A program made the translations under genes and the position numbers. Of a DNA stretch of 64,000 bases, positions 9,121 to 56,458 are shown piece after piece; the stretch's first letter is position 1; each line of letters starts with the position of its first letter. A model generated the notes under the pieces. It was given only the letters and a program-made list of their open reading frames with translations. It did no database searches and was not told where the DNA came from. Location of the stretch: assembly GCF_018598225.1 (NCBI RefSeq), contig NZ_JAHESF010000012.1:62001-126000 (forward strand), given 5' to 3'. Source of the stretch: Chryseosolibacter histidinae. Its GTDB lineage: Bacteria > Bacteroidota > Bacteroidia > Cytophagales > Cyclobacteriaceae.

Positions 9121-9150
9121 GTAGGCAGTAGGCAAAGGCAGTAGGCAAAA
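9121..9150. repeat. Single arm of GTAGGCA word repeat
   Basis: Three tandem GTAGGCA-type units lie in the 245-base gap between the divergent treS and lipoprotein genes. The word matches the arms at 29304-29476 and 51279-51432, but here no full opposite arm follows; only a short GGTGAA/TTCACC pair flanks it. Confidence 0.65.
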
Positions 9151-29303: not shown

Positions 29304-29476
29304 TAGTAGGCAGTAGGCAACCCCCGATAAATCGGGGCAGTAGGCAAAGGACGAGTTACAGCAAATTCAGATAAGCTTCGAATGTATTGAGAGCGTAGCA
29401 CAGTCTTGTATCTCATCGCCTGTACTTTGCCTACTGCCATGATCGCTTGCGATCATGATTTGCCTACTGCCTACTA
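29304..29476. repeat. Inverted repeat of GTAGGCA words with nested hairpins
   Basis: The left arm starts TAGTAGGCAGTAGGCAA and the right arm ends TTGCCTACTGCCTACTA, between the convergent helicase and lipoprotein genes; the right end includes the lipoprotein TAG stop. Each arm is interrupted at the same phase of the word by a perfect small hairpin: CCCCGAT-aa-ATCGGGG (29322-29337) and ATGATCGC-tt-GCGATCAT (29439-29456). Confidence 0.8.
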
Positions 29477-30085
29477 GTCTTCCGCTACCATCTGGAACAG
29501 TGGCTTTTTTTCGAGGAAGGTATCCTGATCGATCTCTTTCAGCAGCATTTTATTTTCATCCAGGAACTTGTTGTATTCCGTGGCAATGCGGTCATATTCT
29601 TCGCGGTAGTTATCTACGCGCTGATCGGCGGTGCGGATCGATTCAACAAGCTTCTGCAGGGTGGAGTTATAAGCAAATTCCGTTTGTGATTCAGCCAGGC
29701 TGATGAGCTCGGTCACCAGCGAGTTCGACGCAAAGTCATATTCTTCAATGACGTGCGCATTCTCCATCGATTTTTGTGTATAACGTGAAAGTACCAGGCG
29801 ATCGAGCCGCTCTTCATAGCTTTTTAAGGCGTCGCGGTTGGCGGGATTTGAAACTTTGAGCTCGTGAAGCAGGTTGTGCATGGCCTTGATCTTCTGGTTG
29901 TCGTCCGTGATCATGGTGTTCCAGGTCTCCAGCATGCTGTCTTTGAGGTTGAGATAGGTCTCTGTAAGCGAATCTACCTTTGTAAAGTGGGGGGCATCAG
30001 TCTTTTGCCGCTCTTCGCAGCTGCAGCAGAGATAGAAAATGCTGCAAGACAATACAATACCCGGTAAATATAGCTTAAAGTTCAT
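29474..30085 (-). CDS. Coiled-coil lipoprotein, unknown function
   Basis: 203 residues. The signal ends in a cysteine cluster LCCSC (C20, C21 or C23 could be lipidated). The mature protein is almost wholly helical with heptad-like L/I spacing. The segment IRTADQRVDNYREEYDRIA near 160 recalls the long helices of LemA proteins, but I am not sure of that link. Probably a membrane-anchored helical bundle facing the periplasm. It ends inside the arm of an inverted repeat and lies 115 bases downstream of paaD on the same strand; cotranscription with paa genes is uncertain. Confidence 0.65.
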   Translation of the reverse strand: MNFKLYLPGIVLSCSIFYLCCSCEERQKTDAPHFTKVDSLTETYLNLKDSMLETWNTMITDDNQKIKAMHNLLHELKVSNPANRDALKSYEERLDRLVLSRYTQKSMENAHVIEEYDFASNSLVTELISLAESQTEFAYNSTLQKLVESIRTADQRVDNYREEYDRIATEYNKFLDENKMLLKEIDQDTFLEKKPLFQMVAED

Positions 30086-49300: not shown

Positions 49301-51280
49301 CCCCAGTACGGTGCCAACCCGTCTGAGGGCCTGGTGAAAGATCCACTGTTAAGACGCCTGCAGTTTGAAGAGACAGCTTCTGATATCGCGATCAAAACTT
49401 TCAGCGCCGCGGCAGGTAAACCCATCGACTCCGTTAGTCTTAAAATCAACGGGGCTGAATACAATTTGCAGCAGGAGGCAGGCATCGGAAATTTTGCCTG
49501 CCGTAACAACACCATCAACCTGGTGGCGTTCGATAAAAAAACCACCCAGGCCTACCCGGGAATTTTCCTGACGTGGTACGAGATCCAGAATAGCCATGGC
49601 GGAAGGAAGCTGATCTGCGGACGCGAGCCGTATGTGATCAACAGCTTCATGCCGGCAGAGCTGGCGGTGGGCAACAACGCAGACCTGATAAGATATGTCG
49701 ATAATATTCCTGTCGGCGATTCCGTAGTGCTCTTTAATATAGGTGATGCCGGTTATGCATCCTGGCCTGCCGCGGCGAAGAACAAGCTTGGTGAATTGGG
49801 CATCGCGGTAGCGCAGATCGACGCACTGCAACCGGGTGAGCCAGTGGTGATCTTTGCGCGCAAGGGAACGGCTCCTGGTTCAGCGAAAGTTTACCGCGAT
49901 ATGACCAACCCGCCCAATCAGCAGCGTGTGAAACATACCGGCACCATCACGGGCAGGCTTTCGTCCGGAACATTGCGCACGGCGGTGATCGGTCCGGCAC
50001 AAGCGTGGAGTCAGTTCATGGTCCGTTACACGGAAGCAGGCCCGTCTGATAAAGTGCTGTTCGATGTTACAGGAATAAAACTGGATGGCCACGAAGTGTT
50101 GCTGATGGAAGATATCACGGACGACCACGACCTGACACAGATCGACGCGCAGGAATATCCGTACATCAGGATCGCGCTCAAGCTTGAAGACAACACTTTT
50201 CTCACCGCCGCGCAGCTCGACCATTGGCTGGTGACCTACGAGCCCGTGGCGGAAGGCCTTTTGTTATACCGCGGATCAGTAGCCCAGCAGTTACTTTTTG
50301 AAGGCCAGCAATGGGATGGCCAGTACAGCTTCATCAACATCAGCAACTATGCGTTCCGTGACTCCCTTACGGTGAATTACAATGTAGTGGACCCCGAAAG
50401 TTTCAACGCCCGGCGCCAGGTGATGAAGATCGGTGCTCCGGCGCCCGGCGACACCACACGATTTACAGTAACCTTTAACACGGCAGGGCAGCAGGGATTG
50501 AACAATGCCGAGGTATTTGTAAACCCCAGGGTGGTGGCTGAGCAGAGCTACGACAATAACTTCATTGTGCTTCGCAAGCATTTTAACATCACTGGCGATA
50601 CGCAGGCACCGGTGCTGGACGTTACCTTTGACGGCAGGCATATTTACAGGAATGAATTTGTGTCGCCATCGCCTGACATACGCATCAGGCTCCGCGACAG
50701 CAATCCCTTCATGCTGAAGAAAGATACCACAGGCATGGCTATCTTGTTATCTTCACCGTGCCAGGGCGAAGACTGTGCGCTGAAGGCTGTTCACTTCTCG
50801 CGGCCGGATGTGCGCTGGAAAGCAGAAACCGATACATCGGATTTTATGGTGGACTTTAGCCCTGCGGATCTTCAGAACGGCACCTATATTTTACGTGTTG
50901 AGGGACGCGATGTCAAGGGAAATCCCAGCGGTGCTACACCTTACGAGATCATGTTCCAGGTAAAGACGGAGACAACCGTCTCGATCCTGCCGCCATATCC
51001 CAACCCGTTCAATCACAAAGCGAATTTTTCATTCACCGTATCAGGACAGGATATACCCACTGCATTTAGCTTACAAATATTGTCTCTCACGGGGCAGGTG
51101 GTTCATCAGTTCTCTGAAACGGATGCCGGTACCTTTCACATCGGTACCAATACCATTGCCTGGCCCGCGCTGGACCCCGCCGGCAATCCGCTACCCAATG
51201 GTGTTTATGTCTTCAAGCTAACACTGCGTGTACACGATCAGGAAGTGAGTAGTCAGGGGAAGATCGTGCTGGTGAGATAG
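46352..51280 (+). CDS. porU2: PorU2-like C25 (gingipain-fold) protein with type IX sorting domain
   Basis: 1642 residues. Signal peptide (about 1-19, ends GFAQ). A C25 peptidase-like region spans about 400-760 with the catalytic-type His in ITFFGHSAAN (near 613) and Cys in LLMNGCAAGSFF (near 648). CARDB-like beta domains follow. A type IX secretion C-terminal domain starts near 1546 (PPYPNPFNHKANFSF) and ends GVYVFKLTL...GKIVLVR. Family knowledge: PorU trims the sorting domain of secreted proteins and attaches them to the surface; PorU2 is a large relative in Cytophagales. That it still has its own sorting domain is notable. Confidence 0.82.
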   Translation: MRVWVLAILGFFIALPGFAQVGNEWIHFGQPYFKIQVAHDSLYRLTPATLQNAGFPSGVDPRTFRLFHRGVEVAIHVEGETDGLFDAGDYIEFYGRHNDGTLDTELYNDPSSQPHTLYNLYADASAYFLTFDFNNGKRMPFSAPSNPGLSPQAHHIDEKLLVLKDQYSPGMDYGDIMASTFDIGEGWMGGQIIQGQTGSYQLEGIMNTVPAAGEPSVEILLTGRGPMNHNVEIYAGARLLTTVTFPAYQSYKHTQQLMWSDISGDGKVTIRAKVTGSPDRISVGYIRLRYSQQTDMALAADKIFTLAPNAGGTAYIEIKNPAAGTRLYDITDPQNVRRIFTTQPGTTLNAVINSAAVSRKILATSATFTPPVKRVIFRNINPSQQDFVIITHPLLRKPASGYTDPVKAYAEYRALPQGGQYDTLIVNINQLYDQFSYGETTPLAIYRFLKFLKTGKLPDYLFLVGKGLDINTNYYRNPGPFTAHKDLVPTGGFPGSDMIYSAGLSAGTAAAAVATGRLSAMGPEDVAAYLNKVKETEALPYDNLRRKNVLHLSGGIFPGEPQQFRTFLEQFGTVASALYLGGKVKAIAKQSTDIEVINVADEVNSGLNLITFFGHSAANTSDFDIGYVTDPVMGYNNKGKYPLLLMNGCAAGSFFLNVTNFGENWVNSSNKGAIGMIAHSSFGFASSLRNYSSLFYQVGYADLQFMNKGVGDIQKEVARRFHSMFGTEPEPTTQTQQMILLGDPAIKLFGALEPDYQIGAENISINSLDGEPVTALSGSFVLNFMISNYGNVKNEDFSVTVSRTLGNGNVVTYDSTFRPIYYQDTISFTIPGNVEGGFGNNTFTIEIDADHAIDELREDNNTASATFFIPLNGTKNLYPSNYAIVNSREVNLSLQHTDMLSGEREFLLEVDTTDAFNSGFKQQYTLRGTVLATQKINLLPNDTLAYYWRTKLVNELPNESKEWDVNSFTYIADGPEGWAQVHFPQYGANPSEGLVKDPLLRRLQFEETASDIAIKTFSAAAGKPIDSVSLKINGAEYNLQQEAGIGNFACRNNTINLVAFDKKTTQAYPGIFLTWYEIQNSHGGRKLICGREPYVINSFMPAELAVGNNADLIRYVDNIPVGDSVVLFNIGDAGYASWPAAAKNKLGELGIAVAQIDALQPGEPVVIFARKGTAPGSAKVYRDMTNPPNQQRVKHTGTITGRLSSGTLRTAVIGPAQAWSQFMVRYTEAGPSDKVLFDVTGIKLDGHEVLLMEDITDDHDLTQIDAQEYPYIRIALKLEDNTFLTAAQLDHWLVTYEPVAEGLLLYRGSVAQQLLFEGQQWDGQYSFINISNYAFRDSLTVNYNVVDPESFNARRQVMKIGAPAPGDTTRFTVTFNTAGQQGLNNAEVFVNPRVVAEQSYDNNFIVLRKHFNITGDTQAPVLDVTFDGRHIYRNEFVSPSPDIRIRLRDSNPFMLKKDTTGMAILLSSPCQGEDCALKAVHFSRPDVRWKAETDTSDFMVDFSPADLQNGTYILRVEGRDVKGNPSGATPYEIMFQVKTETTVSILPPYPNPFNHKANFSFTVSGQDIPTAFSLQILSLTGQVVHQFSETDAGTFHIGTNTIAWPALDPAGNPLPNGVYVFKLTLRVHDQEVSSQGKIVLVR

Positions 51281-51432
51281 ACAGTAGGTAGTAGACAAAT
51301 CACAATCGCTTCGCGATTGTGGCAGTAGGCAATGGTGATGTGTGATTAACTCGACTGAGTATCTTTGATTGAAACACAAGCTGGTAAAACTTCACCAACC
51401 GTTGTCTACTGCCATTTGCCTACTGCCTATTG
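51279..51432. repeat. Inverted repeat of GTAGGCA words with one nested hairpin
   Basis: The left arm (ACAGTAGGTAGTAGACAAAT) begins at the PorU2 stop, and the right arm (TTGTCTACTGCCATTTGCC onward) ends just before the slyD stop. The left arm is interrupted by a perfect 9-bp hairpin CACAATCGC-ttc-GCGATTGTG (51301-51321). The uninterrupted right arm shows the empty site, AAATGGCAG. Confidence 0.8.
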
Positions 51433-55354: not shown

Positions 55355-56458
55355 ATGAAACAGACGATACCGTTGCTCATGCTGGCGGGTGCTTTTTGCG
55401 CGCAGGCACAGAACCTGGTGCCCAATCCGGGTTTTGAAGAATACGAAGCCTGCCCTGGTAACTTCAGCGAAGCTGCGCATGAATTTCGCGTAGCGCCGTG
55501 GCGTGCGGCAGGTACCGGTACTCCTGATTATTTCAATGCATGCAGCGACGGTGAAGCCAACGTTCCGCACAACTGGGCCGGAGTCTCCGATGCTTATGAC
55601 GGTCATGGTTATGCGGGCATCTACGCATGGATGGACCGTGATGATCCCTATCGTGAATATTTACAGTGCCAGTTGCTGCAACCTTTGGTGAAAGACTCCC
55701 TTTATCACATCGAGTTCCATTACAAGCTGTCGTCCTATTCAAAATATTCCATCGACAGGATCGGCCTTCTGCTGACAGGAAAGCCTTTGAATGAAAGGCA
55801 TGATGACGAGCTGCGCTTCACGCCAACGCTCTCGGTGGTCCGCGATTCAGCGCTGACAAAAACAACCGGTCTCTGGGAAACGGCCAGCATGGAATACAAA
55901 GCTTCGGGAGGAGAACAGTACCTGGTGATCGGAAATTTTTTCAGCAACGAGGCCACCAGGCGATACGAGATCCGTTTCAGGCCCGTATCGCAGGTCATGC
56001 TGGCCCACAGCGCCTATTATTACATTGACGGCGTCAGCGTTGTTCCCAAATACAGGTTGTCTGAGAACGTGATCGCGCAGCTGCCGCCCGAGTTCTCACC
56101 GGCCAGCGCCACGCTCAACACCACGTACGTGTTGAAGAACCTGCAATTCGAGCTCAACAGCTATAAGCTCACACCGTCTTCCTTCTATGAGCTCGATCAG
56201 GTGGCGGATGTGCTCATCATGAACCCCAAGCTGAAAGTGCAGTTTTTCGGTCACACAGACGACCAGGGCAGTGACCAGTACAACCTCCGCCTTTCCCACA
56301 ACCGCGCAAAAACCGCGGGAGAATACCTGAAGACCCTGGGTATCAATCGCAACCGCATCGAGGTCTTCGGCTACGGCAAACAAAAACCGCTCATCCCCGA
56401 AACCACCGACCAGGCACGGTCCGTAAACCGCAGGGTGGAGATCAGGTTCATCAGGTAA
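55355..56458 (+). CDS. OmpA-family cell-envelope protein
   Basis: 367 residues. Signal peptide (MKQTIPLLMLAGAFCAQAQ), an N-terminal beta-sandwich (about 20-225, LVPNPGFEEYEACPGNFSE and DGVSVVP: a carbohydrate-binding-like fold seen in this group), then a C-terminal OmpA domain from about 255 with FGHTDDQGSDQYNLRLSHNR and SVNRRVEIRF, which binds peptidoglycan. Probably outer-membrane-linked and tied to the wall. Together with the LysM gene it forms an envelope operon. The stop codon lies in a GGTAACCGGGTAATC word. Confidence 0.9.
   Translation: MKQTIPLLMLAGAFCAQAQNLVPNPGFEEYEACPGNFSEAAHEFRVAPWRAAGTGTPDYFNACSDGEANVPHNWAGVSDAYDGHGYAGIYAWMDRDDPYREYLQCQLLQPLVKDSLYHIEFHYKLSSYSKYSIDRIGLLLTGKPLNERHDDELRFTPTLSVVRDSALTKTTGLWETASMEYKASGGEQYLVIGNFFSNEATRRYEIRFRPVSQVMLAHSAYYYIDGVSVVPKYRLSENVIAQLPPEFSPASATLNTTYVLKNLQFELNSYKLTPSSFYELDQVADVLIMNPKLKVQFFGHTDDQGSDQYNLRLSHNRAKTAGEYLKTLGINRNRIEVFGYGKQKPLIPETTDQARSVNRRVEIRFIR

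Follow-up and report, generated by a model that had tools for sequence, protein, structure and literature searches.

Small hairpins in one slot of a GTAGGCA-word intergenic repeat of Chryseosolibacter histidinae

Two intergenic elements in a stretch of 64,000 nucleotides from Chryseosolibacter histidinae (contig NZ_JAHESF010000012.1, positions 62,001 to 126,000; hereafter the window) raise the question of how small hairpins came to interrupt a repeated seven-base word at the same point. The word, GTAGGCA, is present 21 times in the window, compared to 4.8 expected. The first element, at 29304-29476, has mirrored arms on either side of an 81-nt core and lies between a DEAD-box helicase gene (Pfam matches DEAD, Helicase_C and DbpA) and a convergent minus-strand ORF at 29474-30085, which has a LemA match below the cut-off. 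The second, at 51279-51432, has its arms on either side of a 71-nt core. Read on the minus strand, the right arm of the first element is GTAGGCAGTAGGCAAAT-(C ATGATCGC AA GCGATCAT G)-GCAGTAGGCA, the interrupting hairpin being given in parentheses; the left arm of the second, at 51284, is GTAGGTAGTAGACAAAT-(CACAATCGC TTC GCGATTGTG)-GCAGTAGGCA, and the left arm of the first, at 29306, is GTAGGCAA-(CCCCCGATAAATCGGGG)-CAGTAGGCA. The arm at 51403-51430 runs without interruption as AAATGGCAG. A sequence-only reading had described both loci in these terms, and its three hairpins and one uninterrupted arm were found again when the sequence was re-read; the pattern also recurs through the genome, as can be seen below. 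The features of the window are as follows.

29306..29319, plus strand: left arm of the first element, outer double word GTAGGCAGTAGGCA, 4 nt past the helicase stop codon
29320..29337, plus strand: left slot with hairpin CCCCGAT-AA-ATCGGGG, gap of 18 nt
29338..29346, plus strand: left inner word CAGTAGGCA
29347..29427, no strand: core, in a family of 10 similar cores among 38 sampled paired elements
29428..29436, minus strand: right inner word
29437..29460, minus strand: right slot with hairpin CATGATCGC-TT-GCGATCATG (plus-strand letters), gap of 24 nt
29461..29474, minus strand: right arm, outer double word, its first G being the final base of the TAG stop of ORF 29474-30085
51284..51297, plus strand: left arm of the second element, outer words GTAGGTAGTAGACA, 3 nt past the stop codon of a called ORF
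51298..51322, plus strand: left slot with hairpin CACAATCGC-TTC-GCGATTGTG, gap of 25 nt
51323..51331, plus strand: left inner word CAGTAGGCA
51332..51402, no strand: core, with no similar core in the other 37 paired elements at E <= 1e-3
51403..51430, minus strand: right arm with an empty 5-nt slot (AATGG)
9121..9147, plus strand: single arm elsewhere in the window, with an empty 4-nt slot

An arm is made up of two GTAGGCA words, a degenerate heptad (e.g., AATGGCA) and a further word, often mirrored around a core of 46-119 bp. Across the genome (8.04 Mb, 122 contigs), GCAGTAGGCA occurs 194 times, compared to 14 for its reversed control. Arms were collected from the window and 80 stretches around listed GCAGTAGGCA places, together 1,496,159 bases (1.50 Mb) with 95 word clusters, with a tolerance of up to two mismatches for the outer double word and one mismatch for the inner. 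This gave 120 arm matches, among which eight pairs overlap; degenerate arms are under-counted in this figure because the collection was centred on the listed exact GCAGTAGGCA places, three counted places and isolated words on contigs C76, C100, C111 and C122 being left out. Taking longest ORFs as genes, 12 of the 120 arms fall inside one.

The distance between the outer and inner words falls into separate classes, with 69 of the 120 arms at 8 nt or less, one at 13 nt and 50 at 18-36 nt. A perfect stem of at least 6 bp is present in 37 of the 50 long gaps, and one of at least 5 bp in 44, compared to a mean of 0.62 and a maximum of 3 gaps with a 6-bp stem in 100 shuffles. Of the 13 long gaps falling short of a 6-bp perfect stem, 11 resemble hairpins of these kinds that have been damaged, and two, at loci L080 and L130, are without any hairpin. 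When perfect hairpins with a stem of at least 7 bp were counted over the 95 clusters, 45 were found: 30 single ones in the slot, three in cores and 12 others. On sorting by eye, 11 of these 12 turned out to be parts of double hairpins, again within the slot, and the last to lie in a TACGAGG word nearby. The earlier description of hairpins inserted at one fixed point therefore holds for 41 of the 42 hairpins outside cores (the 11 in double hairpins included) as one slot rather than one exact base, since the distance from the outer word to the start of the stem, measured in 32 single hairpins, is 2-3 nt for 27, 4 nt for three, 0 nt for one and 5 nt for one. Ten double slots were viewed; their outer hairpins match the TCCCGATAGCTATCGGGA kind but for one or two changes at most, and the inner ones are variable. 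A clean insertion with constant boundaries was discarded, as hairpin arms keep about 2-5 slot bases, compared to 4-7 in most empty arms.

The sequence-only reading had also claimed that the stems differ by paired changes. With the inserts anchored on the inner 4+4 stem bases only and compared with 2000 shuffles, this claim stands at the outer pairs 3 and 4 of two stem types. In the TCGC type (17 distinct inserts), these pairs are Watson-Crick in 15/17 and 15/17, with shuffle means of 11.1 and 7.6, and the observed count was reached in 4 and 1 of the 2000 shuffles; in the TAGC type (14 inserts), they pair in 14/14 and 13/14, with means of 7.8 and 6.0, and none of the 2000 shuffles reached either count. 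Pair 3 of the CGAT type is Watson-Crick in 21 of 30 inserts (mean of 10.2, 0/2000). Pairs 1 and 2 vary little and give no clear excess (70 to 2000 of the 2000 shuffles reach the observed count), and pairing is not clearly above shuffles at pair 5 of the TCGC type (8/17) and TAGC type (4/14) or at pairs 4-5 of the CGAT type (1/30 each). Uncompensated mismatches do occur as well, as shown by the 13 long gaps without a 6-bp stem, 11 of them damaged-looking.

Further evidence comes from elements with words on both sides, of which 38 were obtained. Ten of them share a similar core. In nine of these the 5' slot (in core orientation) is filled, with at least five kinds of single or double hairpin and a mismatch in one of the hairpins; the tenth copy has no hairpin there. 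Because copies with the same core differ in the slot, the slot content turns over faster than the core. Judged by gap length, 11 of the 38 have both slots filled, 23 have one and 4 have neither, a split that describes length only, since the right arm of L076 is parsed as a gap of 6 yet holds a hairpin, and no hairpin is present in the long gaps at L080 (right) and L138:9743 (left).

The slot is not confined to GTAGGCA. Other heptad families occupy the same intergenic space, namely TACGAGG, GTTGACA, ATCTCAA, GTCCACG/GTCCATG and GGCATTA (loci L065-L144 and L287-L298). Hairpins of the slot kinds are also seen within TACGAGG, ATCTCAA and GTTGACA words. For GTTGACA, 10 of 47 distinct arms genome-wide carry a hairpin; by eye, nine of these hairpins occupy the homologous slot and the tenth is displaced, flanked on each side by GACA.

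Regarding the relatives, 8 of 13 genomes have the pattern GTAGGCA-gap-AGTAGGCA, in 88 rows of which some are nested within a single arm, and no row has a stem of even 5 bp at the gaps of up to 30 nt visible to the scan. Both congeners carry an arm with an empty slot, as in GTAGGCAGTAGGCAAAATTGCAGTAGGCA of the congener G002. Since these rows, both congeners included, are without a hairpin, the empty slot is probably ancestral. Among the matches listed from several phyla, possibly without this genome among them, 87 arms at 80 loci have no 5-bp stem either, the gap at L179 having a 4-bp stem, under the threshold. The pattern GTAGGCAGTAGGCAA-gap-CAGTAGGCAA is likewise found in several phyla, with gaps that peak at about 5, 12 and 19 nt among the matches listed, i.e., in heptad steps. 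As far as sampled, the hairpins would be a derived feature of this lineage, and their insertion into a pre-existing word is supported by the empty slots in congeners and other phyla together with the same core having different slot contents.

The comparison of gene ends indicates turnover of the arm sites as well. With orthology taken as the best match of at least 55% identity among 30 loci, 14 of 24 gene ends were comparable, and no arm lies within 300 nt at the best matches of these 14 in the two congeners (28/28 comparisons; some of the matches, such as the histidine kinases and OmpA-like proteins identified by eye, could be paralogues); in two of the 28, a lone word with one mismatch was seen. 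At the position of the first window element, the congener G001 carries no more than a short palindrome, and the heptad-like tract of G002 is a different one. The reverse case is an element of G002 that starts at a stop codon and has none here (L309 vs. L098), and the sole gene end with arms in both species (L310/L098) has empty slots in both. No orthologous arm was found with a hairpin in one species and without it in the other. Arm sites thus turn over between species. Moreover, GTAGGCA elements of G002 at L299, L307 and L309 face other short-word tracts in the matching gaps here (L086, L143 and L098), which suggests that word families are replaced rapidly. In G001, the palindrome CCCGATAGCTATCGGG recurs within a longer repeated block (L281-L286 except L285).

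The reading preferred here, with a probability of roughly 55%, is an intergenic repeat of REP/MITE-like kind that is built in layers, with heptad arms that small palindromes enter. The first layer would be the arm of GTAGGCA words plus a degenerate heptad, which is often mirrored and often has its start at a stop codon; the second would be a palindrome of 14-23 bp, which in this species sits within the degenerate heptad of some of the arms and which was not seen in any of the tested relatives. Such palindromes may be very small, non-autonomous REP/MITE-like elements, which spread as they are inserted or copied at a favoured position within heptad tracts; they may also be exchanged between element copies, their perfect stems possibly being kept by palindrome-based copying (template switching) and perhaps by weak selection. 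There is one slot, it is empty in relatives, its content varies on one core, the stems change in pairs and the same slot is used in two word families; from this, we infer that the palindrome moves as a unit, by some mover.

It is also possible, though unlikely, that the hairpins were made in place, by a replication template switch within the arms that creates and later repairs a short inverted copy, with no mobile palindrome. Template switching can make and mend perfect stems, as described in the available part of PMC8794818, and paired changes could on that account arise without selection. The hairpins here resemble those of template switching in their perfect stems, kept by paired changes, as far as that source describes them; unlike them, they share stems between many loci and across several word families, with stem letters (GATCGC, GATAGC and CCCGAT) that are not copied from the flanking words. 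Template switching may therefore account for the upkeep of the stems, but hardly for their origin.

One class of palindrome deserves separate attention. The palindrome CCCGATNGCNATCGGG has 81 sites in this genome, with none for the reversed control, and is patchy elsewhere, being found in 17 of the 59 genomes searched, its own included; the copies viewed in G001, G003 and G017 lie mostly outside such words. In the form TCCCGAT-N-ATCGGGA, 44 copies were viewed, 30 of them outside GTAGGCA arms and double slots, and exact 4-nt direct repeats stand on both sides of 14 of these 30 and are absent in 16, compared to 0.46% at random positions, a baseline that ignores the period of 7. In most cases the repeats are no more than suggestive because period-7 words confound them, a 4-nt duplication looking like a 3-nt loss since both shift the phase equally. 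The copy at C32:55494 (55494-55537) alone is clear, reading GTT-GACA-palindrome-GACA-AAAGAACAG compared to empty arms such as GTTGACAAAAGAGCAG. The slot hairpins within GTAGGCA arms do not conform to this 4-nt repeat. Another hairpin that recurs between genes, (G)TTGTTGGTG..CACCAACAA(C), was seen several times, once at L091:10099. It is a tentative and rather doubtful proposal that the 18-bp perfect palindrome TCCCGATAGCTATCGGGA and its loop variants form an interior-less transposable unit with 4-nt target duplications, the heptad arms acting as its landing platform. If true, intergenic repeats would therefore grow by stacking minimal elements: words, hairpins and double hairpins.

A more improbable alternative considers the hairpins as a functional RNA or DNA structure, in which a transcript of the element would fold into a three- or four-way junction and so terminate or protect mRNA, especially between convergent genes. 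Structure prediction folds one window element into a four-way and the other into a three-way junction (z of -8.6 and -9.4), and paired elements prefer convergent genes (20/37, compared to 200/1021 gaps). The outer arm ends also gather at -20 to +15 nt from a co-oriented stop codon in 63 of the 120 arms, compared to 1.9 at random and 5.2% (about 6) at random intergenic positions, while only 2 lie at the corresponding edge of an opposite gene. The outer stem pairs covary, as seen above; caution is needed here, as paired stem changes by themselves are no proof of RNA function. Against a structural role, the inner words do not change in step between the two arms (16 mismatches compared to 17.1 shuffled, with low power, as 22 of the 38 pairs are of identical consensus), so that arm-to-arm co-variation was set aside at that low power. 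An intrinsic terminator was rejected because no T run follows the hairpin, the 12 nt after each of 49 long inserts holding at most 3 T, and because there is no tie to gene orientation: hairpins are present in 34 of 80 arms after a co-oriented gene and in 15 of 38 otherwise (p of 0.84). Furthermore, only 38 paired elements were found in the stretches holding the 95 word clusters. A known structured RNA was discarded for the window, where Rfam gave 0 matches at the gathering score, and an integron attC site was set aside for the family core on a by-eye comparison with its consensus. The stop-codon preference itself fits an insertion tolerated at gene ends as well as a 3'-end role. Several unrelated proteins end in ..SRQ or ..RQ, because AACAGTAGGCAGTAG translates as N-S-R-Q-stop and the repeat word can supply the stop codon.

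Least probable is a single REP/BIME system of arm plus hairpin moved by a RAYT (an IS200/IS605-type Y1 transposase) that recognises GTAG and the hairpin: the word does start with GTAG, the tag of one REP superfamily, REP dimers within longer palindromes are on record (both in the accessible part of PMC3733652) and the genome has four Y1_Tnp matches, but the strongest Y1 gene (L225) has unrelated hairpins and no arm alongside, the slot hairpins begin about 3-8 nt past GTAG, and relatives keep the words without hairpins. The RAYT link was rejected since no arm lies within 1.5 kb on each side of the four loci (L225-L228). Two isolated GTAGGCA words are present at L225 and TACGAGG words near L226, and none of the searched words at L227 and L228. 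The two hairpins near the L225 gene, AGAAGCGTAGGG..CCCTACGCTTCT and ACGCAGGG..CCCTGCGT, are unlike the arm hairpins. No GTAG or CGTC tag stands at the hairpin foot, where the 32 single hairpins have AA, AAT, AT and the like before the stem.

The layered repeat with palindromes entering its arms is best filed as kin, in kind, to heptamer repeats and to REP/MITE palindromes: it has the seven-base words in near-tandem intergenic runs of heptamer (STRR-like) repeats and the small, many-copy intergenic palindrome of REP/BIMEs, and lacks the REP tag and RAYT link. Heptamer repeats of TAACTGA are known from Beggiatoaceae, Cyanobacteria and Bacteroidetes, and 36 sets are split by a different but related 7-mer, by a mechanism given as not known in the available part of PMC4679880. 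Like them, the words described here are seven bases long, mostly intergenic and patchy across distant groups, and some overlap gene ends (PMC4679880, same part). The TAACTGA repeats are mostly direct and near start codons, with one inverted repeat and no inserted hairpin mentioned in that part of PMC4679880; unlike them, the arms here have a slot for a hairpin, tend to be found at stop codons and often come as mirrored pairs.

The likeness to REP/BIMEs, which carry a GTAG or CGTC tag, extends to the small palindromes between genes, whose stem letters come in alternative complementary versions, and to the nesting of a few families in longer palindromes, as far as the accessible text of PMC3733652 goes; unlike them, the hairpins here have no tag at the foot, many stems share one slot and no RAYT link was found at the four Y1 loci. 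A third, possible kinship is with MITEs, from which the present palindromes differ in being about 16-20 bp in all, with no interior, and which they resemble as short intergenic inverted repeats, one palindrome class having suggestive 4-nt direct repeats. MITEs are short inverted-repeat elements between genes. They are also named in the consulted part of PMC3733652. In the literature, no paper among the exact-string matches listed holds GTAGGCAGTAGGCA or CCCGATAGCTATCGGG; the nearest in topic, as far as their accessible parts go, are PMC4679880 and PMC3733652, and also PMC4692102, on heptameric G-rich repeats.

Heptamer words stand between genes in distant bacterial groups, and their origin is not known. 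The same arms with and without a hairpin, in one slot and in more than one word family, offer a before-and-after series for the growth of such repeats and for the enzyme involved.
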